From the NCBI RefSeq assembly GCF_040267685.1, contig NZ_CP158367.1:1612001-1676000 (forward strand): DNA of 64,000 bases, given 5' to 3'. The notes below the pieces were generated by a model. That model saw only the letters and a list, made by a program, of their open reading frames with translations, did no database searches and was not told where the DNA came from. The position numbers were made by a program, and so were the translations under genes. The stretch is from Proteinivorax tanatarense. Its GTDB lineage: Bacteria > Bacillota > Proteinivoracia > Proteinivoracales > Proteinivoracaceae. Positions 32,179-63,445 of the stretch are shown here, one piece after another. Within the stretch, counting starts at the first letter, position 1; every line of letters begins with the position of its first letter.

Positions 32179-33771
32179 TTAGCTTCTACCTAATAATTTT
32201 CTAAAAAATTCAATCGACTTCCAAGCTCGGCTTTTAAGTACACTGTTATATTTTTTAAGTACTCTATTATATTTTTTTAATAATTTCCTGTACTCCTTCT
32301 TTAAACTAATATTTTCATATATTAACCTGTCTACCTGTTTTTCAGTTAGATTTGGTCTTATAATTTCAAAACCTAGTTTAACAGGTCTTGAGTACTTTTC
32401 GCAGGTAACATCTTGAACATTTGCTTTTCGAGGAGCAGTATCAGAAATTATCTTATCGAACTCTTCTAGGTTATTTTTCTTTCCTGATACAATAATTTGA
32501 ACACTTCCGTTTTCTATATTCTGCACAAAACCATTTAACTGAAGTGCCCCAGCTTTTTTTACTACCCAATTTCTGTAACCAACCCTTTGTACTTTTCCAC
32601 ATATGGTATACTTAAAAGCATTATAATTCAATTTAGGGGCCGATGGGATTCCCACCTCTTTTATCAAGTTATTCTCTAATGGCTTAAGTACACTTTTAAA
32701 ATCAAAATAGCTATTATTTATTTTTTTGTTATTAACTGTTTCTGGAAAATAATAATCTATAATTGCAGAAGGTACATCTTGTGCAGTTCCTGACTCTGGA
32801 AATGTATGCATGCTAATTTGAGCTTTTGAGTTAATCTCTAATACATATCCTATATCACTTTTTAAGTCTGCCACAATGTCAACAGCCCCTTGGTGTAACC
32901 CCGGCACAGCATTAATAGCATCTACAGCAAGTTTTTTAACATTTTCTGTAAGTTCCGATGTTATCTCTGTCGGCTCCCCTCCTGAAGAAACGTTACTCTT
33001 CTCTCTTAGGTTTATTCTTTCTCCTTTTTCGGGAATATACGATAAAGTTATATTTGTCTTTTTCAAATGTTTTTTTAAATCTCTATCTATTTTAATTAGT
33101 CTACCATGGGTATAAGGATTTTGCTTTCGTTTTTTATTTTTTTCGGCAATCAACTGTTTGACTGTTAATTTTCCATCTCCGCAAACAAACGCAGGCACTC
33201 TAGTAACTGCTCCAACAACTTTATCACCAATAACATATATGCGATAATCGCTTCCCTGAACATATTGCTCAACAATGATGTCCTCTACTTTTAAATTATC
33301 TGTTAATGTTGTAATAGCTTCAACAAGCTCCTCGTTGTTAGTGATATTAGTAAAAACTCCCCTTCCAGCACTACTGTCTACGGGTTTAACAACTAGTGGA
33401 TAGGGAGTGTTTTTTAATTGTTGTAGAATTGATTCTAGGCTATCATTTTTATTAAATTTATATCCCATTGGGATACAAACGTTTCCCTTTTTCAAGTATT
33501 TTTTTGTTAATGCCTTATCTAAACAGATATTAGTAGCTTCTTTAGTAACTTTGCCTCCTCGTGACACTGCAAATTCATATTTTTTTTCACCGTTACTTAT
33601 TGTGTACCTTACTCTCCTTTTTCCATCAATATAAATATTATAGAATTTCACCTTTAAACCTCTACGCCAAGCTTCTAAAGCAATCGTATACATACACAAT
33701 TTGTATCCATATGCCTCTTTAGGAATGGAATTTTCTAAATTCGGCAACCATTTTCTTTCATTATTTTCCAT
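32179..33771 (-). CDS. ATP-grasp ligase fused to an acylphosphatase domain
   Basis: A 530-residue protein. Residues 85-345 are an ATP-grasp domain of the cyanophycin-synthetase type: V-V-K-P-V-D-S-S-A-G-R-G-V at 127-139, V-E-Q-Y-V-Q-G, R-V-P-A-F-V-C-G-D-G-K-L-T-V at 191-204 and metal site L-E-I-N-S at 311-315. Residues 387-472 are an acylphosphatase with both catalytic residues: Arg400 in R-V-G-Y-R and Asn418 in F-V-Q-N. Residues 480-520 are a basic coiled coil. ATP-grasp enzymes join a carboxylate to an amine through an acyl phosphate; the attached acylphosphatase could hydrolyse that intermediate or be a binding module. It is the outermost gene of the teichoic-acid-like module. Substrate unknown. 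Confidence 0.85.
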   Translation of the reverse strand: MENNERKWLPNLENSIPKEAYGYKLCMYTIALEAWRRGLKVKFYNIYIDGKRRVRYTISNGEKKYEFAVSRGGKVTKEATNICLDKALTKKYLKKGNVCIPMGYKFNKNDSLESILQQLKNTPYPLVVKPVDSSAGRGVFTNITNNEELVEAITTLTDNLKVEDIIVEQYVQGSDYRIYVIGDKVVGAVTRVPAFVCGDGKLTVKQLIAEKNKKRKQNPYTHGRLIKIDRDLKKHLKKTNITLSYIPEKGERINLREKSNVSSGGEPTEITSELTENVKKLAVDAINAVPGLHQGAVDIVADLKSDIGYVLEINSKAQISMHTFPESGTAQDVPSAIIDYYFPETVNNKKINNSYFDFKSVLKPLENNLIKEVGIPSAPKLNYNAFKYTICGKVQRVGYRNWVVKKAGALQLNGFVQNIENGSVQIIVSGKKNNLEEFDKIISDTAPRKANVQDVTCEKYSRPVKLGFEIIRPNLTEKQVDRLIYENISLKKEYRKLLKKYNRVLKKYNSVLKSRAWKSIEFFRKLLGRS

Positions 33772-42394: not shown

Positions 42395-43876
42395 TTAGCT
42401 TTTTTTGCCTTGGTTTACATGCGCTGTATATCTCTCAACAGCTTCTTTAGGACTTCCGTCAAACATAAGATTACCTTTATTTATCCAAATAGCCCTTGTA
42501 CATATTTTTTCTACAAACTTCATGTTATGAGTAACGACAATAACAGCTTTTGCGTCAGTAATCATCTCTTGAATTCTTTCGCTAGCTTTTGCTCTAAATT
42601 CCATATCCCCGGCGCTTAAAGCTTCATCAATTATAAAAAGTTCCGGCTGAACAGCAGCTGCGATACTAAAACCTAGCCTAGATCTCATGCCACTGGAATA
42701 ATGTTTTACAGGCTTATTTATGTGTTTTTCCAAATTGGCAAACTCAATAATTTCATCTCTTAGTTGAAAAATTTCTTCCTTTGATATTCCCATCATCATC
42801 CCGCTTAAGATAATATTATCCATTCCTGTTAGATGTCTGTTAAAACCTGCTCCTATACTTAAAAGAGCTGTGGTGGCTCCTTCTGTATAAAGACTTCCTT
42901 CATCGGGGCGATAAATACCACTTATAGTTCGGCATAATGTGGTTTTCCCTGCACCATTATGACCTATAACACCAAGTATATCTCCTTCTCTTACTTTAAA
43001 GCTAACATCTTTTAACGACCAAAAATCCTTTTTTCCTATTTTAAATTTAATGCTCAAATTTTTAGCAACTACAACTTTGTTTTCCTTCACAGCACTTTGA
43101 GTTTCTTTTAATTCTACAACTTTTTTCTTCTTTTTTCTTTTGGGAACAGACTCCCGATACTTTTTCGCCACTTCTTCTGGATGACCTTCAGCAGCAATTA
43201 CACCACTATCAATCCAAATTGCTCTGGTGCAGTTTTTTTTAATAAACTTAATGTTATGGCTTACAATGATCACCATTTTTGCTCGTGAAACAAGATCTTT
43301 AATTTTTTTTGAAGCCCGTTTGGCAAACTCTAGGTCGCCAGTGTTAAGAGCCTCATCCAAAACTAATGTCTCAGGGTTAAGCATTGCCGCAATGCTAAAC
43401 CCTAACCGCGCTCTCATTCCACTAGAATAATTTTTAATAGGTTGATGTATAAAATCACCTAGCCCAGAAAACTCAAGAATTTCTTGATAGAATTCTTTTA
43501 CTTCTGACCTTGCCATCCCCATCATCATTCCATTAAGGTATATATTGTCTTTACCTGAAAGCTGTCTATTAAATCCAGCACCCATAGATAATAGGGCAGA
43601 CACCTTGCCATCTACTTTTATAGTACCCTTATCAGGTTTTAGAATTTCCGCAATAGTTTTACAAAGGGTTGATTTACCTGCACCATTTGAACCAATTATC
43701 CCTAAAACTTCACCTTTATATCCATTAAAACTGATATCTTTTAACGCCCAAAAATCTTTATTTGATTTGTCACCGGTTAAAAGATCATAACTTAGAGTTC
43801 TGATATCTTCTCTTTTGAGTCTAGAATCATATTTTACTCCTATATTTTTTGCTTCTATAACAATATCTTGTTTCAT
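42395..43876 (-). CDS. Polymer-export ABC ATPase with two nucleotide-binding domains (TagH-like)
   Basis: A 493-residue protein made of two similar TagH/Wzt-type ATPase domains. Domain 1 has Walker A G-S-N-G-A-G-K-S-T at 62-70, signature Y-S-S-G-M-R-A-R-L at 150-158 and Walker B L-V-L-D-E-A at 171-176. Domain 2 has G-H-N-G-A-G-K-T-T at 305-313, Y-S-S-G-M-R-S-R-L at 393-401 and F-I-I-D-E-A at 414-419. A lysine-rich linker (245-253) joins them. TagH and Wzt normally have one domain and work as dimers, so this is a fused dimer. All catalytic motifs look intact in both halves. It pairs with the permease encoded 14 bases upstream. Confidence 0.93.
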   Translation of the reverse strand: MKQDIVIEAKNIGVKYDSRLKREDIRTLSYDLLTGDKSNKDFWALKDISFNGYKGEVLGIIGSNGAGKSTLCKTIAEILKPDKGTIKVDGKVSALLSMGAGFNRQLSGKDNIYLNGMMMGMARSEVKEFYQEILEFSGLGDFIHQPIKNYSSGMRARLGFSIAAMLNPETLVLDEALNTGDLEFAKRASKKIKDLVSRAKMVIIVSHNIKFIKKNCTRAIWIDSGVIAAEGHPEEVAKKYRESVPKRKKKKKVVELKETQSAVKENKVVVAKNLSIKFKIGKKDFWSLKDVSFKVREGDILGVIGHNGAGKTTLCRTISGIYRPDEGSLYTEGATTALLSIGAGFNRHLTGMDNIILSGMMMGISKEEIFQLRDEIIEFANLEKHINKPVKHYSSGMRSRLGFSIAAAVQPELFIIDEALSAGDMEFRAKASERIQEMITDAKAVIVVTHNMKFVEKICTRAIWINKGNLMFDGSPKEAVERYTAHVNQGKKS

Positions 43877-47443: not shown

Positions 47444-49075
47444 AGGCGATTGCAAAACTTCACAATGCCTGATATAAAAGCTTTTATATTAATAATCTCA
47501 AAGGAATCCCCCACTTTTTATCGAATTTATATAGTAATCAAAATACGCATTTGATTACATGAAAGGAGGAATATCCAATGAAAAAATACAAACAAATTTC
47601 TTTTGCTAACTTTAACCAAGAATTTGATGAGCTGTTAAAATCTAAGCAACCTACCTTAATTGAGCTATTTAGCGATTTCTTAGAAGTGGATGAAATCATC
47701 CCGGCTTCGTTTTATGATGCTTACTATTCATCGTTAGGTAGAAATAGAGACTATTCTTTGTCGTCTATGATATCTGCTTTAATTTTGCAAAAGATTCTCT
47801 CATTACCCCACACTAAAACTCTTCTAAACATTCTAGCTCTTTCCAAAGAGTTAAGAGATTTTTGTGGGTTTGACGATAAGTTGCCTGATCCAGCTCAATT
47901 CACTCGTTTTAAACAGAATTTTCTACCACACATTGAGCAGATGTTTCATAATTTAGTGGATGATACTGAGGCTTTATGTCATGATATCAATGATGATCTA
48001 GCTGACATCTTAATCTCTGATACCACGGGGTTTGAGGCCTTTGTTAAAGAAAATAACCCTAAGTTTTATGAAACGCTTCTAACCAGTGCAAAAAAGTATG
48101 CTAAAATTGAAAACTCTGTTAACCCTCATTCTCTTGCCGCAAGTAAGATGCCTAAAATGGCGTCTGCTAATAACGAGTTTAAGCTATCTCATTTAAACGG
48201 ACACTTTGGCTATTATCTTAAAACAAACGTTGTTACTAACGGGCTTGGCATTGTTAGACATATAGATTTTTATGATTTAGACTTAGAAACCATTTCTCCT
48301 GAATTAAAAGATGAGTATGATTCTAAAACTCTTATTCCCGTTTTAGAAAACTTTTTCAAAAAGCACCCTCTTTTAAAGTACAAGTACTTTCTTGGAGATG
48401 CTGGTTTTGACTCTTACGATAATTATCGCTATCTTTATTGCGATAAGAATATGATCCCAATTATTCCTTTAAACCAAAGGCGTAAATCTGACTTGCCATC
48501 TTCAGGCTTTACAGATGATGGCACCCCTACATGCCCTCACGATAGTTCATTAAAAATGACTTATGATGGTGTTGCCAGAGAAAAAGGAAGGGCTGATAGG
48601 GTTAAATTTAAGTGTCCTAAATCTAAAAAAAAAGAGTAAATGGTAAGCAAAAAAGCACTTTAGATTGTCAAAACCCTTGTACTTCTTCCTCTTATGGTCG
48701 TGTAACTTATGTGCCTATACACAAAAACTATAGACTTAATTGTGCTATCCCCAGAGACTCTGAGAAATGGAGTAACTTATATAAGGTTAGAACAATATGT
48801 GAAAGAGCTATTGCCCAGCTTAAACACTCTATGTCTCTTAGATCCTCTAAGCTTAATAATACCAAGACTTTAAAAGCTGATATATTACTAGCGGCTATTA
48901 CGCAGCTTACTGCGTTAACTGTTCTGCATAGAGCGAACAACACATCAGCACCTATGTCAATTAAAAACCTTGTAGCATAGACTGCTTATTTTCGCACCTG
49001 ATTCTTCTTAAAAATACATTTTTACATATTTTCGGTTGCTCTATTCTTTTTTAATTAACGCATTTTGCAATTACC
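47444..49075 (+). mobile_element. Insertion sequence, 1632 bases, DDE transposase with frameshift
   Basis: The element is bounded by 13-base direct repeats and has short inverted ends: GGCGATTGCAAAAC on the left (47445-47458) and, read inward on the minus strand, GGTAATTGCAAAAT on the right (49075-49062), with 11 of 14 bases matching. It contains one transposase in two frames. Family is IS1182/IS4-like by its DDE layout; I cannot fix the exact family without a search. It sits in the leader of the leftward CWB2 metallopeptidase gene and points away from it. Confidence 0.88.
47578..48980 (+). CDS. DDE transposase, two frames joined by a probable -1 frameshift
   Basis: The first frame (47578-48639, 353 residues) holds D-T-T-G-F-E-A-F and G-D-A-G-F-D-S-Y, the first two catalytic aspartates, and starts a Cys-rich segment. 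The second frame continues it with K-S-T-L-D-C-Q-N-P-C and ends with the C-E-R-A-I-A-Q-L-K helix carrying the catalytic Glu. The change falls in a run of nine A (48625-48633): slipping back one base reads A-G-A-G-T-A and joins the two exactly. Both halves are otherwise intact, so this is either programmed frameshifting, common in transposases, or a recent error. A GAAAGGAGGAA site precedes the ATG. Confidence 0.82.
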
Positions 49076-49694: not shown

Positions 49695-50780
49695 TTAATT
49701 GATACAATGGTGAATCTGGTATAACTTTTGAACTATTGTCCCTTTTTTATTTAAGGGTACTTGTAATTTATAATTAAATATAAAGTAGCTTGTCCATTCA
49801 AATTTCCATGGGTATCTCCCAGCTCCTAAATCTAAGGTTGCAACTTCTTTACCACTATCTGTGAAAAAGTGTGATAACATCTCATAATAAGTTATCTTCC
49901 CAATACTATATTTTAGGTAGTTTGGATCATATGCCCCATTCCATGAGTGCAGAATATTGTTATATTGATATGCTAATTTGTAACTTAAAAGTTTACCTGT
50001 CGAATCCCGTATTGTAAACGCTCGAACTTTTTCATTGTTTTTTAATATGTTTCTCAAAAACTCCACCATAAATTTATTTGCATAAATATTTTTTCTGTTT
50101 CTTCTGTTTTTGTCTTTAACTAGATGGTTGTTCTCTTTTGTATACAATGCCATAAATTCATCTAAAGTAGCTTCTGTTATTCCTTTCTCTACCTTAAAGT
50201 TATATTGCGTCTCCCTTTGTAACTTATTTAGCCTTTTTCTGGTTCTTTTAGCAACAGGATATTTTCTTTGAAACTCTTCAAACTTTTTGTGCTGTGACAA
50301 TTTTATTTGAGGGCACTCCTTCATATACTTAAAGTGTTTGTTGTACTGAGTTTTTAGTAGGTAGTTTGCTAACGTTGAATCATGTTTTATATGCGTTAGA
50401 TTAATTAAGTCCCACTTGTTTTGCATATTTGAAATTACTGTAAATATCTTTTTTATAATTGATTGTTCGTTGCCCTCCTGTCTATTAATGATAACATTCC
50501 TGTAGTCACCCATCCCCATAAACTCTAATGATGTCCATTTAAGTAGACCTTTTTTGTTTTGTTTTTCTACAAAAGGAGCTATGCCAACTATTTGGTTATT
50601 GTGTATTATTACCAATACAAATAGACTTTGACTTTTATCTTTTTTGTAAGTATCCCACCATAATCTTAAAAATTCGTAGGTATTATAGTAATGAAGATCT
50701 GCATCCTGTTTTTCCAGGCATTCCCATTCTTCTTTTAAACCCTCTAACCCTTTGTAACTATTAATTATTTCATAATTCAG
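49695..50780 (-). CDS. CelD-like GNAT acyltransferase (PF13480 type), CTG start likely
   Basis: 361 residues if started at the CTG at 50780, which is seven bases from a perfect AGGAGGTG; the first ordinary start (TTG, 50615) has no ribosome site and would cut off conserved N-terminal sequence. The added part contains E-E-W-E-C-L-E-K, Y-Y-N-T-Y-E-F-L-R-L-W-W-D-T-Y, the typical opening of the CelD/BioF2-like acetyltransferase family. The C-terminal part has the GNAT core with F-T-I-R-D, Y-K-L-A-Y-Q-Y and S-W-N-G-A-Y-D-P-N-Y-L-K-Y-S-I-G. It probably adds an acyl or aminoacyl group to a surface glycan. It is 33 bases past the 1027-residue gene. Confidence 0.78.
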   Translation of the reverse strand: MNYEIINSYKGLEGLKEEWECLEKQDADLHYYNTYEFLRLWWDTYKKDKSQSLFVLVIIHNNQIVGIAPFVEKQNKKGLLKWTSLEFMGMGDYRNVIINRQEGNEQSIIKKIFTVISNMQNKWDLINLTHIKHDSTLANYLLKTQYNKHFKYMKECPQIKLSQHKKFEEFQRKYPVAKRTRKRLNKLQRETQYNFKVEKGITEATLDEFMALYTKENNHLVKDKNRRNRKNIYANKFMVEFLRNILKNNEKVRAFTIRDSTGKLLSYKLAYQYNNILHSWNGAYDPNYLKYSIGKITYYEMLSHFFTDSGKEVATLDLGAGRYPWKFEWTSYFIFNYKLQVPLNKKGTIVQKLYQIHHCIN

Positions 50781-50813: not shown

Positions 50814-53800
50814 CTATTTTTTGCTTACAAACTCTTTTAATAGAAGAAAGACAAATTTAGAATTGTCAATAAAACACCGTTTCCACATTCTCCTTGGCTC
50901 TTGCAAAAATCTATGGAACCATTCTAATCCAGCTTTTTGCATAAATATAGGCGCTCTTTTATTAATTCCCGCTAAAACATCAAAGCTGCCTCCCACTCCC
51001 ATACAAAACAATGCATTTGTTTTACTCAAATTTCTGTATGCCCATTTTTCCTGTTTAGGAGATCCAAAAGCTACAAAAAGCATGTCAACGGCCTTTGAAC
51101 TTATATCTTCTAAGATATCTTGTTCTTCTGACTTACTAAAGTATCCATTTCTATATCCTACTATATTCAAATCTGGGTATTTTTGCTTTAGAACACTGTT
51201 AACTTTTTTAACTGTTTCTTCTGTAGCACCTAATAGATAAATGTTGTAGCCTTTTGTTTCAGAAAGCTCGACTAAGTTTAAAAACAGGTCTATTCCTGCT
51301 ACACGCTCTGGGAGAGGTTTGCCTAACAGCTTTGCAGCCCAAACTATACTCTGACCATCGGCATTTACTACTTTACACTCGTTTAATATTTTATTTAACT
51401 CTTTATCCTTTTGACATAGTACTGTTTTACTAGCATTTACAACTACATGCTGGGTTTGACTTTTGTGCTTTATGTTTTGCTCTATTTTGTTTATTGTTTC
51501 TTCCATGGTTAATGCATCTACGCTATAACCTAATAAATTTATTCTGTTTTCCAAAGTAACACCTCGTGACTTTTTGTTGTAGTTAATATTTTTAAGTTTT
51601 TGAGATAGTTTTTGGCCTACCACATTGCTATCATAATGTTTTACAGTTTCTTTGCAGTTTTCAAGCATATTTTGTTTTTCAGCATGAGAAAGGTTGAAAA
51701 ACTTTATTAACTTATCAGCAAGGTCTTCTGAACTTTGGGGTTTGAAGATAAATCCATTTTTCCCGTTTTTTAAGTAGCTTGTTAATCCTCCAACTTCTGA
51801 GCCAACTACAGGAGTTTCACAAGCCATGGATTCTATACCAACTAATCCTAAACTTTCGTTCAAATAGGTTGGAAAAACAAATACATCCATAGCGCTATAG
51901 TACTTAGGTAATTTATGCTGTGGCTTTTCACCTAGATACAGTATGTTATTTTCCAAACCCATTTTTTTTATTTTTTTCTGAAAATCTTTTTTTTGGCTCC
52001 CTTCCCCTATGACTAATCCAGTTATATCCAAGTGAGTTTGGTGTTCTATTAACTTCTTTATGCTTTGTAAGTATATCTCCCATCCTTTTCCTGCATCAAT
52101 TCGTGAGACATACCCCATTATTTGCGAGGTTTTAGAAATGTTTAATTCTTGTCTTAAGTTTTGTTTTTCTTTTTTAAATAGCTTAGTGTCTATTCCAGAA
52201 GATGGGGAGATAAAAATCTTATCTTTGTGTATGCCATACTTTTCTGATACTATATGCTCAAAAAACTTAGAAGGTACTACTACCAAATCTGCTCTTTGAA
52301 CTACTTTCTTTGCAACTTTATTCAGTATCTGGCTAAGTCTTGTTTTTGTGAACACATCTCCCCCATGGAAATTTAGTACTAAGTTTTTATTAGGTGTTAA
52401 GAGTCCTTTAAGTATAAGTACAGGTATAGCAGAGTGGCTCACGTAATGAACATACATAGTTTCGTAAGAAGATGATAAACCTTTATTGATTATTTCATAA
52501 TAAAATTTTAGATACAGGAGTATCTTTTTATACTTGCTAGCTTTTTTTTGAGTTATTAAAGCTTTATGAGTGATTATAAGGCCATTTTTAAGCATCTGCT
52601 CTTCGAAATTTTTTACAAATATACCGTAAGAAGGACTTTCAGAACTAGGATACATATTGGATATTAAGAATATGCTATTTTTTATTGTTTTCTCTTCTTT
52701 ATTCGGAAGTACAGCAAAGCTTGCAATCATTCCTATCCAAAGCCCAGCCATTCCTGAACCTAGTGTATGACCTGCGGCAAATGCTATCCCTATTATCAAA
52801 GTAGTAATAAATAAAAGAAGTCTATTATTGTTCTTAATTATAATCTTATAAACTTGCAACCAAAAAATGATTACTAGTGCTAATCCCGCAACACCATAGT
52901 TTAGAAATACATCAAAAAAATCCATTTCTACAGTTATAAAATCGTGTGTATATCCAAATAGTAGATTTAAAACACTACCCTCCTGAATTAAAGACATGTT
53001 AGCAACTAGCATATTGTTTCTCCCCGATAAAAGTGTTGCCATAATGCTACCATCGTGAAATGCATATGAGTAAGTCCATCTATTAAATATGCCTACATTG
53101 CCTAAAAGATAATAAGCTATAAAAATATTGGCTATAAAAAAAAGTATAAATCCTATAGCTCTTTCTGGTTTCATTTTTTTAATAAAATCCTTTTCAATTA
53201 ATGGAAATATAATTAATATAAATAAAGTTGAAATTAGGGCTACCTTTGTGGAAAGGTAAATAGCAAAGAATAAAACTATTATATATGACACTGAAAAAAA
53301 AAGCTTGTTAGCCTTCCATGTTTGGTATAATAAAAATGTAGAAAATACTACAAAAAGAAGAGATACTTCGTTTCCAGCATAAAAGAATCCCCTAGTTCCA
53401 ATAGAGTTCACATACTGGCTATAACCAGAAATACCAGTGATACCTATAGTAAGGTTTAATAATAGTATAAAATAGTTAAATTTAATACATCTAAGATATT
53501 TAGTAATATAAGAGGGAGTGTTTTCAAGTGCTTTTTTAAAATATAGAAACGATATTGGTATAAAATAAAATTTTGAAAGTTGAATGACATAAGAAGCACT
53601 GATCTCACCGTGTAGGTAATAGTTTCCTATAAGTAAAAAAATAAAACTAATTCCAATATATTTTATTTTTTTTTCCCCATAAAAATATAAGCTGGCAATC
53701 ATAATAGCTAAAAGAACTGACTTATAAATTTGGGATATACTAATAATATTTGGGTAATTTCGTATCAATATGCCATTGATAGAATCAATAATAAGATAAA

Positions 53801-53897
53801 CAAATAAAAGCCTATAAATGACATGATTGAGCTGGATATTAATCCAAGGGCTACTAATAATTTTTTTTGTTAACTTAGTTATTTTTTTTGTGTCCAT
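50814..53897 (-). CDS. Three-domain fusion: Wzy-like polymerase, GT4 and TagA/WecG (GT26)
   Basis: A 1027-residue protein. Residues 25-395 have about ten membrane segments and the polymerase/ligase elements Y-A-G-N-E-V-S-L-L and L-L-S-G-R-N-N. Residues 405-770 are a GT4 domain (N-F-H-G-G-D-V, S-R-I-D-A-G-K-G-W, E-S-L-G-L-V-G-I-E-S-M-A-C-E). Residues 783-1022 are a TagA/WecG domain (V-V-N-A-D-G-Q-S-I-V-W, F-G-S-P-K-Q-E, L-Q-E-P-R-R-M-W-K-R). These are usually three separate proteins. The frame is unbroken and linkers are short, so it is a true fusion in the reading frame seen. TagA/WecG transfers ManNAc or ManNAcA to GlcNAc-PP-undecaprenol, using donors from WecB and WecC nearby. Confidence 0.9.
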   Translation of the reverse strand: MDTKKITKLTKKIISSPWINIQLNHVIYRLLFVYLIIDSINGILIRNYPNIISISQIYKSVLLAIMIASLYFYGEKKIKYIGISFIFLLIGNYYLHGEISASYVIQLSKFYFIPISFLYFKKALENTPSYITKYLRCIKFNYFILLLNLTIGITGISGYSQYVNSIGTRGFFYAGNEVSLLFVVFSTFLLYQTWKANKLFFSVSYIIVLFFAIYLSTKVALISTLFILIIFPLIEKDFIKKMKPERAIGFILFFIANIFIAYYLLGNVGIFNRWTYSYAFHDGSIMATLLSGRNNMLVANMSLIQEGSVLNLLFGYTHDFITVEMDFFDVFLNYGVAGLALVIIFWLQVYKIIIKNNNRLLLFITTLIIGIAFAAGHTLGSGMAGLWIGMIASFAVLPNKEEKTIKNSIFLISNMYPSSESPSYGIFVKNFEEQMLKNGLIITHKALITQKKASKYKKILLYLKFYYEIINKGLSSSYETMYVHYVSHSAIPVLILKGLLTPNKNLVLNFHGGDVFTKTRLSQILNKVAKKVVQRADLVVVPSKFFEHIVSEKYGIHKDKIFISPSSGIDTKLFKKEKQNLRQELNISKTSQIMGYVSRIDAGKGWEIYLQSIKKLIEHQTHLDITGLVIGEGSQKKDFQKKIKKMGLENNILYLGEKPQHKLPKYYSAMDVFVFPTYLNESLGLVGIESMACETPVVGSEVGGLTSYLKNGKNGFIFKPQSSEDLADKLIKFFNLSHAEKQNMLENCKETVKHYDSNVVGQKLSQKLKNINYNKKSRGVTLENRINLLGYSVDALTMEETINKIEQNIKHKSQTQHVVVNASKTVLCQKDKELNKILNECKVVNADGQSIVWAAKLLGKPLPERVAGIDLFLNLVELSETKGYNIYLLGATEETVKKVNSVLKQKYPDLNIVGYRNGYFSKSEEQDILEDISSKAVDMLFVAFGSPKQEKWAYRNLSKTNALFCMGVGGSFDVLAGINKRAPIFMQKAGLEWFHRFLQEPRRMWKRCFIDNSKFVFLLLKEFVSKK

Positions 53898-53921: not shown

Positions 53922-55112
53922 TTAAGTTTTTATAGAGTAAATTTGATCAGTTATAGGAACATTAAACACTAGCTTTGTACTTTTTTTTATAGCTGGATAC
54001 TCTTTTCCTCTAATTACTATTCTTACATCTTCTTCTGTTTTTCCATTTTCTAGTTCTAAAGAAATAGCTTGGCCTATAAATTTCCGAGACGTAAGTTTAA
54101 GTCTAAATTGATGATTGTTAATGCGCCTTATATCAACAGATTCAGTTTTTTCATTATACTCAGCAATTTCAGATCCTGTAGCATACCATACATCTTTTAA
54201 TTTTAAAAAACTAAAAATATGCTCCAAATTATTAATGTCCGTTACAATGTTAGGGTATTGAATTCTATCATCTGTTCTCACCGGTGAGGTGTGTTCTTGA
54301 ATACTGATTATTTGTTGATTGGCTAAGCGTTTTTTTATTAAACCTTCTAATGTTCTTTTTTTTAAGAGCGCTAGTAGTGTTGACTTAACATACTTTCTTG
54401 TTAGTAGATATTGCTTTACTTTAAGAGAGTAAAAAGCACCGTCAATTGTCGTTGGTATATCTATGACTCCCTGAAACTTCTCTAAATCATAGGAGTAGTC
54501 TTTTAGATTACTATCGTCCTCTTTCAAAAAATCCAGATGACGGCACCACCACTTAAATCCGGTTTTGGCTATAGATTCATCAGAAAATGAGTTATAAGCA
54601 TACCCTGGATATTTACCTCCTTTAGGATACTCTCCAAGAGCTTTAAAAAAGATTTCTTTTCCCAATTCTGTTGTTTTTATAGCCTCATCCACATTTTTAA
54701 ATGTTTCCCATTCTTGAACGAAGTTTTTAGCATCACTTCCACCAATGCCATGGGTTAGACCATGATATGCTAGCTCTACGTCATTTCTCGAATTTAAATT
54801 ATTTATAAACTCTAAAAAATCTTCACTGCCCAGAATATCTTCACAATAAGTATAGCGTTTATGGGATAAAATGCTAGCTCTTTTTCCTACAACTAAAAAG
54901 AATGTAGTTTTTATGTTGGGCCATTTCGATAATATATTTTGGTTTAAAAAGTTCCACATAGAATTTTGAGATATACCCATATGCCCCCAGTCTTCGCCTA
55001 TGTCACATTTGCCGTTTTTGTTTTTATCATGCCAAAGGTTTGCTAGGTCATCAATCATAAATAGAACTGGACTTTGAGCCCCGTTTTTCCATTTACTAAC
55101 TTTTATCGCCAT
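53922..55112 (-). CDS. Polysaccharide deacetylase-like protein with a Ca-binding-type loop
   Basis: A 396-residue protein from the ATG at 55112 (GAGGGAG eight bases upstream). Early residues L-F-M-I-D-D-L-A give an Asp-Asp pair, then D-K-N-K-N-G-K-C-D-I-G-E-D, an EF-hand-like loop, then Y-H-G-L-T-H with the His-x3-His of NodB-type deacetylases, then Y-A-Y-N-S-F-S-D-E. No signal peptide is present. The fold call is by motif, so I am only moderately sure. It is 14 bases after the MurJ-like gene. Probably modifies the glycan; could instead be another (beta/alpha)-barrel hydrolase. Confidence 0.65.
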   Translation of the reverse strand: MAIKVSKWKNGAQSPVLFMIDDLANLWHDKNKNGKCDIGEDWGHMGISQNSMWNFLNQNILSKWPNIKTTFFLVVGKRASILSHKRYTYCEDILGSEDFLEFINNLNSRNDVELAYHGLTHGIGGSDAKNFVQEWETFKNVDEAIKTTELGKEIFFKALGEYPKGGKYPGYAYNSFSDESIAKTGFKWWCRHLDFLKEDDSNLKDYSYDLEKFQGVIDIPTTIDGAFYSLKVKQYLLTRKYVKSTLLALLKKRTLEGLIKKRLANQQIISIQEHTSPVRTDDRIQYPNIVTDINNLEHIFSFLKLKDVWYATGSEIAEYNEKTESVDIRRINNHQFRLKLTSRKFIGQAISLELENGKTEEDVRIVIRGKEYPAIKKSTKLVFNVPITDQIYSIKT

Positions 55113-55126
55113 ATGTAACACTCCCT

Positions 55127-56695
55127 CTATTTTATAATCTCTTTAATTTGACTAGCTAAATAGTCAAATTCTTCTATTTTTAGCTTTTTTAGCAATATTA
55201 CATATAGCAGTAATGATATAGCAGAACTAAATGATGTAATAAAAAGCACATTGAACTCGCTCAATAAATTTTTCATGGCAAATGCTAGGACGCCTAGAAT
55301 AACTGAAACAAAAATAATTTTAATAAAAAATATCATAAAATGATATAAATTTAAATTAATCTTCTTGTTTAGTGTATAGAGTAATAGTAAAGCTGTCGTT
55401 ATGTGCGCTATGGAAGTCGCTAAAGCTAATCCCCCATGATCCAAGTATTGTATAAGAACAAAATTTAAAATGATATTCATGATAACAGTGATTGTACCAT
55501 TTATCATAGGGCTTTTAGTGTCTTGCAGTGCATAAAATGAACGTCCCAGTATATCTCTAAAAGCAATACCGATCATACCAAAGGAGTAATAAAATAATGC
55601 AGTTGCTGTAAGAGCAGTAGCTCTACTATCAAATTCTCCTCTTTCAAATAAAATTTGTATTATTTCATATCTTAATACCAGCATAAGCGTGGCTATAGGG
55701 AGAAGGATGACGGTAAGAACTCGAAGTAATTTAATTGTTAACTCTGATAGCTCACGCTTACTTTTTCGTGCAACTCTAGACAGTTCAGGGTAAGCAGCTG
55801 TACCTATAGAAACTACAAATATGGCTATTGGCAAAGTGTAAACACGATTAGCAAAGTTTAGCGATGCTATACTACCTTGTACAAGATTGCTTGCTAATGT
55901 CTTGTCTACCAAAATATTTATCTGTACAATCCCGGATCCAATAAAAATAGGTATCATCAATTTAATCATTTTTTTCAAATACTTATCTTTAAAGTTGCAA
56001 GCTACTTTATATTTAAACCCAACTTTTATAGCTGCTGGAAGCTGGAAAGCTATCTGTGTAAAGGCGGCTACTATAGTAGCTACAGCTAAGCCTTCTATTC
56101 CATAATGCCTGCTTAGAATTACATTGTAAAGAATAATTATTATATTATGGGGTGTCCAAACAATAGTTTGAATAAAAAATTTACTATAAACTTGCAATAT
56201 AGCGCTTATTGCACTAGACACGGTTAATATCAAAACCATAGGAAACATAATCCTTGTTAATAATATAGCTGTTTCTAAGCTTTGTCCTTCATACCCGTAG
56301 GCAAATATTGGCACATAATAATCAGCAAGTAGAACTCCTGATAAAGCTATTAAAATTCCGATTAACCCCATAGCATTAATAAAGGAATTGGCTAAATTTA
56401 GCGCTGCAGCTTCTCCATATTTATTCTTGACATCAGTAAAAACAGGAATAAATGTGGATTTAATAGCGCTTGTTAATATCGAAAATATAACAAATGGAAG
56501 CATATATGCTAACAAGTAAATATCTGCTGTGGCTGAGGCACCGTAAGCATCAGCAATGCTCATTTCCCTAATAAACCCTACAGTTTTGTTTAACAGCATT
56601 CCGATAATTATCAAAACACTTGAAAAAGAAAGTTTGTTTATTTTTGGGGTTCCTCGTCTCATCCTTTGTTTTTTAAGAAAGTTATTTATTTTCAT
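55127..56695 (-). CDS. MurJ/MviN-family lipid-linked oligosaccharide flippase
   Basis: A 522-residue MOP-superfamily membrane protein with about fourteen hydrophobic segments. The segments G-F-I-R-E-M-S-I-A-D-A-Y-G-A-S-A-T-A-D and the F-I-P-V-F-T element match MurJ/MviN proteins. In this place, between WecA-C and the polymerase-GT fusion, it is more likely the flippase for the locus's own lipid-linked glycan than the housekeeping peptidoglycan flippase, but sequence alone does not decide this. Confidence 0.88.
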   Translation of the reverse strand: MKINNFLKKQRMRRGTPKINKLSFSSVLIIIGMLLNKTVGFIREMSIADAYGASATADIYLLAYMLPFVIFSILTSAIKSTFIPVFTDVKNKYGEAAALNLANSFINAMGLIGILIALSGVLLADYYVPIFAYGYEGQSLETAILLTRIMFPMVLILTVSSAISAILQVYSKFFIQTIVWTPHNIIIILYNVILSRHYGIEGLAVATIVAAFTQIAFQLPAAIKVGFKYKVACNFKDKYLKKMIKLMIPIFIGSGIVQINILVDKTLASNLVQGSIASLNFANRVYTLPIAIFVVSIGTAAYPELSRVARKSKRELSELTIKLLRVLTVILLPIATLMLVLRYEIIQILFERGEFDSRATALTATALFYYSFGMIGIAFRDILGRSFYALQDTKSPMINGTITVIMNIILNFVLIQYLDHGGLALATSIAHITTALLLLYTLNKKINLNLYHFMIFFIKIIFVSVILGVLAFAMKNLLSEFNVLFITSFSSAISLLLYVILLKKLKIEEFDYLASQIKEIIK

Positions 56696-57058: not shown

Positions 57059-58216
57059 CTAAATTGCTCTAATATAATCTTTAAAATTATTGATTTTATT
57101 ATTAAAATATCTGTCTAGTAATGCTTGGACAATTCGTTGAGAAGCCTGTCCATCTCCATACGGATTTATACTCTTTGACATAGCATTATATTTATTTATG
57201 TTGCTTAAAATGTCACTTGCGACTTCACAAACCTTTCTTTCATTATGACCGATTAACCTTACTGTCCCCGCTTCAACGGCCTCTGGTCGTTCAGTCTCTT
57301 CTCTTAATACAAGAACAGGTTTCCCAAGGGATGGTGCTTCTTCTTGTAGTCCTCCAGAATCAGTCATTATCAAATATGACCTGTCCATTAAATTATGCAT
57401 GTCTTGCACATCCAGTGGATCTATTAGATGGACTCGAGGGGTTTCCCTCAAAATAGACCCTATTGTGCGTTGAACTGCTGGGTTTAAATGCACAGGGATT
57501 ATAAACTGAATATCAAAAAATTCTCGAACAAGTTTGTTTACTGCATTACAAATATTCGTTAATGGTTTCCCTAAATTCTCCCTACGGTGTGCTGTTAATA
57601 ACAAACTTCTTTTTTGGCTAAAGTTAATATCTCTAAGCTTCTTATTGTTAAAATTATACTTTTTATCAACTGTATGTTGCAAAGCATCAATGACGGTATT
57701 TCCTGTCACGTAAACATTGGTCTTTATTCCCTCTTTATAAAGGTTTTCTTTATTTTTGGGTGTAGGTGCAAAATGGAGATCTGCAATGTTCGAAACCAGT
57801 GTTCTGTTCATTTCTTCTGGATAAGGTGAATACTTATCGTTTGTCCTCAGTCCAGCTTCTATATGACCAACAGGTATTTTTTTGTAGAATGCCGCTAAAG
57901 CTGCAGCCAGCGTTGTACTAGTATCCCCATGAACTAAAACAACGTCTGGTTTTGATTCATCTAATACCTTTTCCAAGCCTACCAAAATTTCTGTAGTTAT
58001 AGTGTTTAAAGTTTGCTTTTCTTTCATGATGTTTAGGTCATAGTCTGGTGTTATTGAGAAAATTTTCAATACTTGATCCAACATTTCACGATGTTGCGCA
58101 GTTACGCATACATTAGATTTGATTTGAGGCTGTTGATCTAATTTTTTAATTAGAGGTGCCATCTTAATTGCTTCAGGTCTAGTACCAAATACACTAAGCA
58201 CTTTTAATTGTTTCAA
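57059..58216 (-). CDS. wecB: UDP-N-acetylglucosamine 2-epimerase, non-hydrolysing
   Basis: A 385-residue WecB/MnaA enzyme. Signatures are V-F-G-T-R-P-E-A-I-K-M-A-P at 9-21, V-H-G-D-T-S-T-T, H-I-E-A-G-L-R-T, P-E-E-M-N-R and T-D-S-G-G-L-Q-E-E. It turns UDP-GlcNAc into UDP-ManNAc, the substrate of WecC and of TagA. The TTG start follows AGGAGTG by seven bases. It lies 24 bases after wecC, in the same operon. Confidence 0.95.
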   Translation of the reverse strand: MKQLKVLSVFGTRPEAIKMAPLIKKLDQQPQIKSNVCVTAQHREMLDQVLKIFSITPDYDLNIMKEKQTLNTITTEILVGLEKVLDESKPDVVLVHGDTSTTLAAALAAFYKKIPVGHIEAGLRTNDKYSPYPEEMNRTLVSNIADLHFAPTPKNKENLYKEGIKTNVYVTGNTVIDALQHTVDKKYNFNNKKLRDINFSQKRSLLLTAHRRENLGKPLTNICNAVNKLVREFFDIQFIIPVHLNPAVQRTIGSILRETPRVHLIDPLDVQDMHNLMDRSYLIMTDSGGLQEEAPSLGKPVLVLREETERPEAVEAGTVRLIGHNERKVCEVASDILSNINKYNAMSKSINPYGDGQASQRIVQALLDRYFNNKINNFKDYIRAI

Positions 58217-58240: not shown

Positions 58241-59467
58241 TTATAGCTTATAAATTTCATTATTTGAACAAATGTTCTTTGTATCTAGTATTATTTTACC
58301 TTGTAATAAATCAAAATTTGACTTAATATGGTCATGCCCAACCATTATTACTATAATTTCTATATGTTCCAAAAAGTCTTTGAAGTCTGTAAATTGATTG
58401 TCAACCACCTTACTGTCGATATATGGATCAAAAACTTTTATGCCAAATGATAAATGTTCAGCCATTTTGTCTAAGATTTGTAAAGTAGGGCTTTCTCTAG
58501 TATCATCTACGTTCTCTTTGTATGTAAGGCCGTACAGTCCTACTTTTGATACATCTTTGATACCATGTTCGTCCATAATTTCTCTTATCCTTTTTAATAC
58601 ATGAATTGGCATGGATTCATTAACTTTCCTAGCAGACAATATAAGGTTTGTCATGTCTGGATAATCCCCCACTAAAAACCAAGGGTCTACCGATATACAG
58701 TGGCCTCCAACTCCAGGTCCTGGCTGTAAAATGTTTACTCTAGGATGCATATTTGCAATTTTTATTATTTCATACACATCCATATTGTCTTCCCTGCAGA
58801 TTTTTGCTAGTTCGTTAGCAAATGCAATATTTACATCTCTAAACGTATTTTCAACCACTTTAGACATTTCCGCACTTCTTAAATCAGTAATGATTATTTC
58901 ACCGTGACAAAATCCTTGATATATCTTTTTTACTTTCTCACCTATTTTTGGATGATCCGTTCCTATTGTCCTTGAATTATATTTAAGCTCGTGAATCATA
59001 TTTCCTGGTATTATTCTTTCTGGTGCGTGAACTAGATGAACATCTTCTCCTAATAATAGACCCCTTTTAATTATTTCAGGCTTTATATACTTATCAATAG
59101 TTCCTGGCGCTATTGTGGATTCAATAATTAAAACAGCTCCCTTATCACATACATCCAAAACACTATTTACAGCTGAAATAACATAATTAGGGTCTAGTTT
59201 TTTACTTTTCTTAATATATGGAGTTGGAACAGCCAATACATATGTATCACCTGGTTGATATTCTGTAGTAAACTCAATATGGTTTACTAATGCCTGATTA
59301 TAAAGCTCATCCAAACCTTGTTCCTCAAAAGTTAATTTACCTTCGCTTAAAGCTCCCACTATTTCTTTATTAGGGTCAACACCCACCACTTTTATTCCAC
59401 TTTTCGCAAACATTAATGCTGTAGGTAAGCCTATATAACCTAAGCCAGCAACTATTATCTTACGCAT
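58241..59467 (-). CDS. wecC: UDP-N-acetyl-D-mannosamine dehydrogenase
   Basis: A 408-residue nucleotide-sugar dehydrogenase. The NAD motif is G-L-G-Y-I-G-L-P, and the G-P-G-V-G-G-H-C-I-S-V-D-P-W-F element around the catalytic Cys is the WecC signature and not that of Ugd. It oxidises UDP-ManNAc to UDP-ManNAcA, so this locus makes a second acidic sugar in addition to glucuronate/galacturonate. Its gene order (wecA, wecC, wecB) is that of wall-linkage or ECA-like pathways. Confidence 0.94.
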   Translation of the reverse strand: MRKIIVAGLGYIGLPTALMFAKSGIKVVGVDPNKEIVGALSEGKLTFEEQGLDELYNQALVNHIEFTTEYQPGDTYVLAVPTPYIKKSKKLDPNYVISAVNSVLDVCDKGAVLIIESTIAPGTIDKYIKPEIIKRGLLLGEDVHLVHAPERIIPGNMIHELKYNSRTIGTDHPKIGEKVKKIYQGFCHGEIIITDLRSAEMSKVVENTFRDVNIAFANELAKICREDNMDVYEIIKIANMHPRVNILQPGPGVGGHCISVDPWFLVGDYPDMTNLILSARKVNESMPIHVLKRIREIMDEHGIKDVSKVGLYGLTYKENVDDTRESPTLQILDKMAEHLSFGIKVFDPYIDSKVVDNQFTDFKDFLEHIEIIVIMVGHDHIKSNFDLLQGKIILDTKNICSNNEIYKL

Positions 59468-59513: not shown

Positions 59514-60539
59514 CTATTCATCAGTTTGTTTGGCAGCACCCACTTCTTTAGCTGATATTTTTAAGACCATTCTTTGTGCTATCCAACTGGGTCTGTATGT
59601 TAGTAACATCAATGCCATCATAGCCGCAACTCCAAACAAGTTACCTGCCATATTATTAAAGTAACAAACAATAACTCCTAAAATACCTGAAATTATTGAC
59701 AGCACATATATAAAACGACAAGTTCCCAAAGTGCTCATTCCACAATCAAGGATTTGATGATGTATATGGCCTCTATCTGCTTCAAAGATTGATTTTTTCT
59801 TTAACACCCTTCTAAATATAGCCCAAAAGGAATCAGCAATGGGAATAAAAAGAATAAGAATTATGCCTAATAGATTTAAACTAGAACCTTGTACAAGGTG
59901 TAACGATGTTATTCCGATAAAGTACCCTAACTGCAAACTTCCGGAATCACCAAGAAATATCTTAGCTGGTGCCTTGTTATATTGATAAAAAATCACAGTC
60001 ATCGTCAGTATAACTGCACTAATAAAAATCGCATAGCTACTTTGAGTTACTATACCTAAAACTAATAAAAAGAACATGTTTACTATTGTTATGCTACTAG
60101 CTAAACCATCCAATCCATCTATAAGGTTTATTGTATTCATTGATCCTACTAACCAAAATAGAGTGACAACTAAAGACATGAACGTTCCTAACTCTAAACC
60201 TAAGAAGTTTGTTAATTGAAATCCTAAAAAGTAAGTTAAAAGTGATACAGTAATTTGACCGAATAATTTTAATTTCGCAGGAAGGTTATAAATATCATCT
60301 AATATGCCTATAATAAATAAAGTAGTAAATGGAATTAAAATATTTCTAAACTGCGAGTTTATAGCCAAAATAAAAAAAAGGGCTAAGAAAAAGGCTATCC
60401 CTCCAGATCTTGGGATAGATTTTTTATGGATTTTTCTATGATTTGGAACATCTAGAATATACCTACTTCCTAATAATATACTAATTGGCATAAAAGCTAA
60501 AAATAAAATCCCTGATAATATAAGCCATTGTAAAATCAT
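59514..60539 (-). CDS. Undecaprenyl-phosphate GlcNAc-1-phosphate transferase (WecA/TagO type)
   Basis: A 341-residue MraY-superfamily membrane enzyme with about eleven hydrophobic segments. Signatures are G-I-L-D-D-I-Y (Asp-Asp), N-T-I-N-L-I-D-G-L-D-G-L-A, I-F-L-G-D-S-G-S and D-R-G-H-I-H-H-Q. It loads GlcNAc-1-phosphate on undecaprenyl phosphate and so starts teichoic-acid-linkage and ECA-like polymers. Headed by a sigma-H-type promoter at 60651. Typical length; catalytic residues are complete. Confidence 0.93.
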   Translation of the reverse strand: MILQWLILSGILFLAFMPISILLGSRYILDVPNHRKIHKKSIPRSGGIAFFLALFFILAINSQFRNILIPFTTLFIIGILDDIYNLPAKLKLFGQITVSLLTYFLGFQLTNFLGLELGTFMSLVVTLFWLVGSMNTINLIDGLDGLASSITIVNMFFLLVLGIVTQSSYAIFISAVILTMTVIFYQYNKAPAKIFLGDSGSLQLGYFIGITSLHLVQGSSLNLLGIILILFIPIADSFWAIFRRVLKKKSIFEADRGHIHHQILDCGMSTLGTCRFIYVLSIISGILGVIVCYFNNMAGNLFGVAAMMALMLLTYRPSWIAQRMVLKISAKEVGAAKQTDE

Positions 60540-60772: not shown

Positions 60773-63445
60773 TTAATCCCTATAATAAACTGGTATATCA
60801 AACCTTAACTGATAGTTGTCTATCTGGTCATAAAGGTTTTTGATGAAGCTTATCTGTTTTACCGACCATCCTACATCTGTTGCATACTGATGTCTGGCAG
60901 GACTTGCTGGATTCCATTTCATCTTATAAAGTGTATCTTGTCTCCTAATAGGATGATTGACATATCTTAATGAAATCCATTCTGCACCTCCTATAACTGC
61001 CTTTTCAGGTGTATCCCAGCCTTGTCGATAAGCGTATTTTGCTCCTTCATTTATAGGATCCCTGTCAAAGGCTCTAATACCATACATATTATAAACTTTT
61101 ACAGTATCTTCTAGCATTTCAATATCATCAACTTCTTTTTCTGTATAAAGTTCTCCATCTTTTTTGCCTACAATTACCCCTTGCGCTAACTTAGATGAAC
61201 CATTTCCTGTTTCGTGTAATGCATGGGCCACAATATAAATTTCATTTATGTTGTGCTTTTTCCCAGCTTCAATAAAGGCTTTACCAGTATTGTGTAGTGT
61301 GCCTTTGTTTTCAAGAATTCTATTTAAGTCATTACTGTTTGTTCCAGATGATCCAGATAAAACCAAAAATTGAAACATCTCTCTTGGAACTTCCTTAGTT
61401 GACTTAACATGCCCTCCTGAAACCCAACCTGTAACTTCGTCAGTTGTTATTTTATACCAACCATTTTGGATTTGCTCTACTACAAAAACTTCATTGCGTG
61501 AAACTCTATCTATTATGTCACTATCAGTCGTCGGAGCTTTCCTTACATTTAAAACACTGGCGGTCACCTTAATTGTTTCTAATATGTAAGGATTGCTTTT
61601 TATAGGAGGAACTACTACCAAGTCACCCCTGACCCATCCATTTATGTCCGCTCCATGTATCTCATACCAGATATATCCATCATTTGCAAAGGTTTTATCT
61701 GTAATTGTATAATTTTCATTCCGTCGCACTCTAGCAACCCTAGGACTATTGGTATTGGGCCTTTCTCTTACATTTAGAATATCAGTGTTAACTGTTAACG
61801 TATCATTAATTGTTTTTTTATAATCTTTTTCAAAGGGTATAAAGTTATTCGTATTAAGATATTTTTTAATTTCTTCCATTGAAGCAGGTTTATTAAAGTC
61901 ATAGTAACTAACATTTCCACCATGATTTTTTTGTAAATCCAATGCTTGCTCCATTGTTAAGTTATAATAAGAATAATGGAAGAAATTATGTTGTTTAGAT
62001 ATAACATTTATTACTTCCTCAGCAACAGCTTCTGATATGGCATTATTACCTCCGATAATAAATGGTGTACCTTGAACCTCAAAAATATAGGATAAAATGT
62101 TTGAATTTATTTGATTTTGTCGAGCTAACAAAATCGGCTTCCCGGTCTGCGCCGCTAATACTGAACTGGCCAAGGCATCGGGAAAATCTTCCCCAGTTGC
62201 AACGACCACACCGTTATAGTAACCTGTGTCAAATTCCTTAGCTATCTCTAAAGAGGTTTCATAGCGGTCAGCTCCTGATATCCTATTTATTGTTACCCCC
62301 TCATTTTCAAGTTGTGTAACAACACTTTTAGAAACAGCATTTTCTCCACCTACAATTACGACATTTTTTACGTCCCACTTGGCAATCGCCTCATTTGTAG
62401 TATCGCGAAGGTGGTCTTTTGGGGTAAATAGTATAGGAACACTTTTTTTTGCAGCAACTGGTGCTATTGATAGTGCATCAGGATAGTTATTTCCCGTAGC
62501 GAGAATTATGGTATCTTCTTGGTTTTCTTTTCTTAATTCATTACCGATTTCTATAGCTGTTTCATACCTATCTCTACCACTTAATATAGTAACTTGGTAC
62601 CCTAAGGATTTAAGTTGTTTATCTACTGTAGAAGAAACAGCATTTTCACCACCTAGGATGTAAATATGATTTACACCTAACCTCTTTAATTCTTGTTTAG
62701 TCGCATCATGTAAAGAATCTTTGCCTGTTAACAAAATCGGTGCATTCATTTGATATGCCAGCGGGGCTCCAGCTAGTGCATCTGGAAAATCTTCTCCACT
62801 TGCTAATACTGCTATATCCGCTCCTAATGGCCAACCTTCTTTACTAACTTCCACAGCAGTAGTGTAGCGACAAGGACCAGATATTCTAAATTCTGATTCT
62901 TCAAAGTCAGAAAAGGCAACTATTTCATTGTACTGGTTCGTAGTGCTTGGAAATGAGTAGTCGCTTATTACCTGCTCTTCCTTTTCGATTGCATCTTCTT
63001 CGGTTGCATCTTCTTCAGTTGCATCTTCTTCAGTTGCATCTTCTTCGGTTGCATCTTCTTCGGTTGCATCTTCTTCGGTTGCACCTTCTTCAGTTGCATC
63101 TTCTTCAGCTGCATCTTCTTCGGTTGCATCTTCTTCGGTTGCATCTTCTTCGGTTGCATCTTCTTCGGTTGCATCTTCTTCGGTTGCATCTTCTTCGGTT
63201 GCATCTTCTTCGGTTGCATCTTCTTCGGTTGCATCTTCTTCGGTTGCATCTTCTTCAGCTGCATCTTCTTCAGCTGCATCTTCTGTTACAATCTTTTCGT
63301 CAGGTGCATTTTCAATAGAAAAGTTATTTTTGTTAGCCTCTATATAGCTTTTTTCTTCGTTGTCATGTGCTAAAGTTGGTAAAGAAAAAGAAAAAACCAT
63401 AACAATAGCTAGCATAAGGGCAAAAAATTTCCGTGCTTTTCTCAT
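60773..63445 (-). CDS. Secreted autolysin: acidic repeat, three CWB2, two SH3, glucosaminidase
   Basis: An 890-residue surface hydrolase. Residues 1-26 are a signal peptide; about 52-160 is an E-E-D-A-T repeat; about 190-480 are three CWB2 repeats (F-P-D-A-L-A-G, Y-I-L-G-G-E-N-A type); about 548-620 and 625-690 are SH3b domains (L-N-V-R-E-R-P-N-T and L-N-V-R-K-A-P-T-T); about 700-885 is a LytD/LytG-type N-acetylglucosaminidase with H-A-L-H-E-T-G around the catalytic Glu. It would cut wall glycan while anchored to the wall polymer. GGGGGG ribosome site, sigma-H-type promoter at 63502. Confidence 0.93.
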   Translation of the reverse strand: MRKARKFFALMLAIVMVFSFSLPTLAHDNEEKSYIEANKNNFSIENAPDEKIVTEDAAEEDAAEEDATEEDATEEDATEEDATEEDATEEDATEEDATEEDATEEDATEEDAAEEDATEEGATEEDATEEDATEEDATEEDATEEDATEEDAIEKEEQVISDYSFPSTTNQYNEIVAFSDFEESEFRISGPCRYTTAVEVSKEGWPLGADIAVLASGEDFPDALAGAPLAYQMNAPILLTGKDSLHDATKQELKRLGVNHIYILGGENAVSSTVDKQLKSLGYQVTILSGRDRYETAIEIGNELRKENQEDTIILATGNNYPDALSIAPVAAKKSVPILFTPKDHLRDTTNEAIAKWDVKNVVIVGGENAVSKSVVTQLENEGVTINRISGADRYETSLEIAKEFDTGYYNGVVVATGEDFPDALASSVLAAQTGKPILLARQNQINSNILSYIFEVQGTPFIIGGNNAISEAVAEEVINVISKQHNFFHYSYYNLTMEQALDLQKNHGGNVSYYDFNKPASMEEIKKYLNTNNFIPFEKDYKKTINDTLTVNTDILNVRERPNTNSPRVARVRRNENYTITDKTFANDGYIWYEIHGADINGWVRGDLVVVPPIKSNPYILETIKVTASVLNVRKAPTTDSDIIDRVSRNEVFVVEQIQNGWYKITTDEVTGWVSGGHVKSTKEVPREMFQFLVLSGSSGTNSNDLNRILENKGTLHNTGKAFIEAGKKHNINEIYIVAHALHETGNGSSKLAQGVIVGKKDGELYTEKEVDDIEMLEDTVKVYNMYGIRAFDRDPINEGAKYAYRQGWDTPEKAVIGGAEWISLRYVNHPIRRQDTLYKMKWNPASPARHQYATDVGWSVKQISFIKNLYDQIDNYQLRFDIPVYYRD
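62986..63285 (-). repeat. 20-copy 15-base repeat coding for E-E-D-A-T
   Basis: Twenty units of 15 bases without gaps (plus-strand unit CGGTTGCATCTTCTT), varying at only a few positions (C-A-G-T-T, C-A-G-C-T, one C-A-C-C). Because the unit has no stop in any frame, long false frames appear on both strands. In frame it codes for a strongly acidic low-complexity segment between signal peptide and wall-binding domains. Copy number can change by slippage. Confidence 0.95.

Follow-up and report, generated by a model that had tools for sequence, protein, structure and literature searches.

The ECA operon of E. coli K-12 has the gene order wecA-wzzE-wecB-wecC-...-wzxE-wecF-wzyE-wecG, and the PSII locus of C. 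difficile encodes an MviN flippase, the polymerase CD2777, LcpA/B and CWB2 proteins (PMC5065235). For TagA, the C-terminal appendage is required for activity, residue roles have been described for Asp65 and the appendage arginines, and Thr37 contacts ManNAc (PMC6493773). Here we describe a locus of Proteinivorax tanatarense in which a polymerase-type membrane domain and two glycosyltransferases share one gene. It lies in a stretch of 64,000 nucleotides, hereafter the window, whose coordinates are used throughout; the source genome is a single contig of 3.09 Mb with a completeness of 98%. The fusion ORF occupies 50814..53897 of the minus strand, from ATG to TAG. Read from 53897 to 50814, this strand is open throughout, with 0 internal stops and 1027 residues, and the plus strand of the same segment is stop-rich. 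The unbroken frame claimed by the original prediction was thus borne out, and Pfam matches agree with its domain set and order (polymerase/ligase-type, GT4, GT26). Both transferase domains appear intact and no domain looks decayed. The GC content of the three domains is 28, 32 and 34%, and no clear signature of recent transfer was found in their base composition. The fusion is a natural single-gene encoding of three cell-surface sugar-polymer enzymes.

The Wzy/O-antigen-ligase-type polytopic membrane domain (52698..53897, minus strand) covers residues 1-400 and is supported by PF13425, homologue alignments and a motif. Membership of the Wzy/O-antigen ligase superfamily was judged by PF13425 or PF04932 above cut-off, 10-12 helices and a large outer loop with a conserved Arg. 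PF13425 (O-antigen_lig) matches the isolated domain at residues 282-392 (2.6e-10; 40.2 bits, the cut-off being 31) and, also above cut-off, two of its homologues (48 and 61 bits). R293, in an SGR motif within the long loop 266-335, and E324-M-D-x-F-D are conserved between the domain and its homologues. The ten helices first proposed are no more than an approximation, as simple hydropathy predicts 8 confident segments here and 10-11 in three homologues. Solved structures searched with the Wzy profile gave no match, and a single-sequence AlphaFold model (pLDDT 39) was not used as evidence. Read only from its locus, the domain would be a polymerase. Its sole Pfam match bears the name 'O-antigen ligase like' and is a weak family mixing ligases and polymerases, which could suggest that the domain instead puts the finished glycan onto another acceptor. 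We regard such a ligase as quite improbable: the LHNLY of the genome's other Wzy_C-type protein (19844-21127) is replaced by E-[MI]-[DE]-x-F-[DE] in the subfamily of the fusion, relatives of the domain are located in Wzx/Wzy-type loci, and the same slot holds a polymerase in PSII of C. difficile and in the ECA operon of E. coli.

The GT4 (GT-B) domain follows at 51573..52685 (minus strand, residues 405-775). It matches PF00534 (3e-37, 128 bits) as well as PF13439 and carries the E-X7-E pair as E681 and E689, a pair kept in its homologue from the same family (G003, see below); both the Glycos_transf_1 domain and the glutamate pair of the GT4 class are thus present. The domain is 38-41% identical to its homologues in G003, in a genome of another family of the phylum (G167), in E. 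faecalis and in P. megaterium. Each of the six loci in which this GT4 subfamily was found (at least 38% identity) also has a Wzy of the subfamily seen in the fusion, and in five of the six it is fused to the GT4 or lies directly upstream of it. Since the GT4 subfamily already accompanies the Wzy subfamily across loci, the fusion seems to have tightened an existing association.

The GT26 TagA/WecG domain forms the C-terminal part (50814..51554, minus strand, residues 782-1027) and ends in a membrane appendage. PF03808 matches residues 843-1007 (2.5e-62, 210 bits against a cut-off of 27.4), and the domain aligns with T. italicus TagA (7mpk) over its full length, C-terminal appendage included (2.7e-55). 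Aligned with both TagA and the WecG of E. coli, the domain keeps the TagA residues D65, R83, R214, R221 and R224, Asp847 corresponding to D65 and R996, R1003 and R1007 to R214, R221 and R224. All the features by which GT26 membership was judged (PF03808, alignment to the TagA fold, Asp65 and the appendage arginines) were therefore found. The Thr37 of TagA proper was not: its place is taken by Val819 in the fusion and by Ala in E. coli WecG, a replacement that weakens the label 'TagA' and not the GT26 membership. Transfer to GlcNAc-PP-lipid is predicted, and the substrate is probably ManNAcA rather than ManNAc. This GT26 is the only one in the whole genome, and the four other genomes searched within the same family have no GT26. 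In the GT26 tree, it falls into a supported clade with GT26s from Lactobacillales plasmids and from the genome G016, the sister placement with G016 itself being weak (90/58). The GT26 of G167 groups with WecG on long branches, apart from it. Such a topology, together with the absence from four family genomes, suggests that this lineage probably gained GT26 and then joined it to Wzy-GT4. Inheritance of GT26 as a neighbour of the G167 type was considered and found unsupported, as the tree places the two GT26s in different branches.

On the minus strand, a gene for a CWB2-SH3-glucosaminidase protein comes first, then the operon of wecA, wecC, wecB, murJ, a deacetylase-like gene and the fusion, and finally a GNAT gene. 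The gaps between wecA, wecC and wecB are 46 and 24 nt; 363 nt precede murJ, and gaps of 5 and 24 nt follow. The WecA/TagO-like polyprenyl-phosphate GlcNAc-1-phosphate transferase (59514..60539) matches PF00953 (2e-33) and is 28% identical to E. coli WecA. WecB, a non-hydrolysing UDP-GlcNAc 2-epimerase (57059..58216), scores above the cut-off of TIGR00236 (9.7e-156) and is 54% identical to E. coli WecB, and the MurJ-like flippase (55127..56695) scores above that of TIGR01695 (3.3e-108). The WecC-like protein (58241..59467; 38% to E. coli WecC) has its best match in the UDP-ManNAc dehydrogenase model PRK11064 (3.8e-105), yet stays below its cut-off. With this reservation, the neighbours WecA, WecB, WecC and MurJ named by the original prediction were confirmed, and the ECA-type set of WecA, WecB, WecC, GT26, flippase and Wzy is present in one operon. 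The GH57/DUF2334 deacetylase-like protein (53922..55121), which has a homologue in the G003 locus, is encoded 24 nt upstream of the fusion; the Acetyltransf_6 (GNAT) protein (49695..50615; PF13480, 5.5e-19) is encoded 198 nt downstream. The wall protein with three CWB2 repeats, SH3 and glucosaminidase (60773..63445; PF04122, 2.2e-66) is a probable client of the polymer. Near its N terminus, at 62968-63279, a long acidic EEDAT-type repeat has open frames on both strands. The sequence upstream of the window encodes a GT4, another WecA-like protein and, 2-10 kb past the window end, three proteins of the LCP family. Near the operon, no gene for a chain-length regulator was noticed. A DDE transposase (DUF772; 47578-48639, plus strand) is found between the operon and a second CWB2 protein.

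Farther from the fusion, the window holds two PF04464 glycerophosphotransferases at 34-37 kb (9.3e-66 and 4.8e-64) and an ABC exporter at 42-45 kb, composed of a TagH-like tandem ATPase and an ABC-2 permease. This teichoic-acid-type set, 6-20 kb from the fusion, invites the supposition that the GT26 domain is a true TagA of a wall-teichoic-acid-like pathway, its attachment to Wzy-GT4 being accidental, or that one lipid-linked disaccharide feeds two polymers. The lack of any other GT26 in the genome and the slightly better score of the domain against TarA than against WecG models are in keeping with it. However, WecC plays no part in standard WTA linkage units, and the fusion belongs to a WecB/WecC/MurJ operon, and the 14 kb that separate it from the PF04464 genes contain a transposase and a CWB2 gene. 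Moreover, three related genomes (G001, G002 and G003) have PF04464 genes without GT26; since TagB/F-like genes occur in such relatives, a TagB/F-type polymer probably does not need GT26. Overall, we find a teichoic-acid role of either kind distinctly unlikely. Two further features of this region may be recorded. One protein (42395-43876, minus strand) contains two tandem TagH-type ABC ATPase domains and adjoins the ABC-2 permease. Three closely spaced ATP-grasp proteins (32179-33771, 36999-39809 and 39872-41533, minus strand) each carry an acylphosphatase domain, N- or C-terminal, an odd repeated fusion beside the PF04464 glycerophosphotransferases and the tandem ABC ATPase.

Relatives were sought in about 490 genomes (398 spread over the phylum and 97 of the class of G167) as well as in plasmids and viral contigs. 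Among these genomes, the triple fusion was seen only in this one. With the Wzy domain as a single sequence, G003 and G167 were the only ones of the 398 phylum genomes to give clear relatives, and a profile search added two distant ones; the 97 genomes of the class of G167 held no further relatives of the Wzy domain, and viral contigs gave no matches. A scan of genome contigs with the whole protein yielded only two weak GT4 matches. Frames of 613-622 aa that resembled long GT26 fusions were rejected, as ORF reading resolved them into separate neighbouring genes, and the frames of G020, G104 and G190 belong to high-GC genomes with long chance frames. A literature search for Wzy or TagA fusions found none, which, given its incomplete coverage, is weak evidence.

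The two clear relatives differ from the window in a stepwise manner. G003, of another genus of the same family, encodes a Wzy-GT4 fusion of 757 aa (L059:9117-11390), 37% identical to the same two domains here. Its locus includes WecA next to the fusion, as well as MurJ, a deacetylase and a CWB2 protein, but the genome has no GT26. The deacetylase-like gene of that locus (L059, G003:C7, 3787-4973) is broken into two overlapping frames in the draft assembly and is whole in the window. In G167, separate genes for Wzy, GT4 and GT26 follow one another as the domains do in the fusion (L060:7561-10739), though the GT26 is of another branch. There, GT4 begins before Wzy has ended: the two ORFs share 89 bases (L060, 9375-9463) in different frames, and the GT4 start has a strong SD of its own (GGGGGAGGTGA) within the last part of the Wzy ORF. 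A one-base change in an overlap of this type could fuse the genes, which is plausibly how Wzy and GT4 came to be joined in G003 and in the window. On plasmids, one locus in each of two Enterococcus faecalis records combines wecB, an upstream tagA and a wzy gene with GT4 immediately behind it, and a P. megaterium plasmid carries the GT4 and MurJ together with a member of this Wzy subfamily. The domain order of the fusion is therefore found elsewhere as three separate genes, the triple fusion in no other genome searched. The original prediction would have been undermined if homologues were always separate; this is not the case for Wzy-GT4, whereas every GT26 homologue found is separate.

The slot after Wzy-GT4 differs among these loci. 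In G003, it is taken up by genes for a PssD-like fragment (as read from the sequence) and a PF04101 PssE-like protein, the latter next to one for a UDP-glucose 6-dehydrogenase. In G167, it holds GT26, with amino-uronic-acid genes behind it: one for an aminotransferase, one for a nucleotide-sugar dehydrogenase and one for a UDP-GlcNAc 3-dehydrogenase/acetyltransferase. In the window, the GT26 is fused and accompanied by WecB and WecC. We infer that this slot holds a transferase for a second, acidic sugar and varies with that sugar. Because separate adjacent genes (G167, L060) and a two-domain fusion lacking GT26 (G003, L059) exist, the fusion is not required for the chemistry.

A frameshift in the assembly had been named as a possible error at residues 395-410 and 770-785. 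At the first junction (around residue 400), the 757-aa homologue of G003 aligns unbroken through residues 390-420, and this alignment confirms the junction independently of the present assembly. At the second (around residues 776-782), homology to GT4 proteins runs out at about 770-776 and that to GT26 sets in at 782-785, leaving a linker of about 10 residues. No frameshift is required here, and the junction was seen in one single-contig assembly: no fused GT4-GT26 homologue was found among the approximately 490 genomes. As one altered base would suffice, an error might have erased a stop codon between GT4 and GT26. That the joint is such an artefact we hold to be very improbable, considering the single-contig genome with its high completeness, the absence of any needed frame change, the independently real first junction and the intact ORFs of the neighbouring operon.

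An in-frame TTG (Leu782; 51552..51554, minus strand) stands exactly where GT26 homology begins. At the GT4/GT26 border, 5 nt (TTACT) ahead of it, is an SD-like GAGGTG (51560..51565, minus strand). The predicted anti-SD pairing of this site with the 16S tail, -7.2 kcal/mol, ranks third among 40 in-frame starts and exceeds that of the gene's own start (-5.3 kcal/mol). The pair may be what remains of a formerly independent tagA, or it may serve as an active start inside the gene. In the latter case, the frame could be read partly or mainly into two products, Wzy-GT4(-GT26) from the first start and a free TagA from Leu782, and the fused form would be of little functional weight. However, the fusion is necessarily made whenever the first start is used, as no stop separates the domains. 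Besides, the two sites that score higher lie within domains and arise by chance, which makes the signal weak and, taken alone, suggestive only. Thus, we keep the two-product reading as a minority possibility; it is compatible with the pathway that we favour.

This favoured pathway is that the fusion is a late-assembly protein of a Wzx/Wzy-type, ECA-like wall-glycopolymer pathway, which we consider likely. From the frame, domains, catalytic residues, operon and stepwise homologues set out above, a reaction order, sugars, product and tethering function can be proposed as follows. WecA would transfer GlcNAc-P onto undecaprenyl phosphate, and WecB and WecC would supply UDP-ManNAc and then UDP-ManNAcA. 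At the inner face, the GT26 domain would add the second sugar, probably ManNAcA, onto GlcNAc-PP-undecaprenol, and the GT4 domain the third, the order of the two being our supposition. The separate MurJ-like protein would flip the lipid-linked unit, and the Wzy domain would join units at the outer face into a wall glycopolymer. LCP proteins encoded just upstream of the window may attach the polymer to the wall, and CWB2 proteins, judging by the gene neighbourhood, may bind it as an anchor. The placement of the TagA/WecG step early and inside and of the Wzy step late and outside, made at the outset, is supported. Substrate channelling through all three domains was not borne out: since flipping by another protein intervenes, there can be no channel to Wzy. 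What stands of the proposed assembly complex is at most a tether with fixed stoichiometry, and not a tunnel joining Wzy to the transferases. The fusion would hold the two inner-face transferases to the polymerase at 1:1:1, with a possible local hand-over of the lipid-linked intermediate between GT26 and GT4.

As for its origin, adjacent genes for Wzy, GT4 and a second-sugar transferase probably gave rise to a Wzy-GT4 fusion, to which an acquired GT26 was then joined in frame. This direction of change is our interpretation, and an older fusion later split could also account for the Wzy-GT4 pair. Overall, the fusion looks like a rare stepwise joining of known parts in an ordinary pathway and not a new kind of system. 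Its parts and the pathway outline are already known; the three-way architecture is new to our searches of about 490 genomes, plasmids, viral contigs and open-access papers.

Wzx, Wzy and regulators have been proposed from genetics to act as a complex, which was shown for WzyE-WzzE (PMC10030265). It is tempting to go further and suppose that one polypeptide adds the second and third sugars and polymerises the units, all within an obligate complex across both membrane faces, while the internal start releases free TagA for a second polymer. We think this unlikely, but if it were true, completion of the repeat unit would be structurally coupled to polymerisation. In any case, a natural polymerase-transferase fusion, with separate and half-fused relatives as controls, offers a test of whether cytoplasmic transferases join such a complex and a stable handle for purifying it. 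It also points to co-travelling Wzy and GT4 subfamilies and to an interchangeable second-sugar transferase slot.

Finally, we return to the described systems. T. italicus TagA (7mpk, 5wb4) shares with the fusion the whole GT26 domain and the catalytic and appendage residues listed above, but it is a free protein, whereas the GT26 of the window sits behind a membrane domain and a GT4 and has Val in place of T37. The C. difficile PSII locus resembles the window in being of Wzx/Wzy type for a wall glycopolymer, with a MurJ-type flippase and LCP and CWB2 genes nearby (PMC5065235); it differs in its repeat unit, and a three-enzyme fusion is not described there. The E. coli ECA operon encodes the functions of the present operon in an almost identical gene order, with identities falling from WecB and WecC to GT26/WecG (35%) and WecA, and its last three genes, wecF-wzyE-wecG, match the fused functions. 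In E. coli these three are separate genes, while the window has a MurJ-like flippase and a GT4 instead of WecF. In blastp, WecF, WzyE and WzxE had no significant match among the operon proteins, and no Fuc4NAc genes, WecF or WzzE are annotated in the operon. Judged by its genes, the operon appears to work like ECA assembly, yet it is not ECA.
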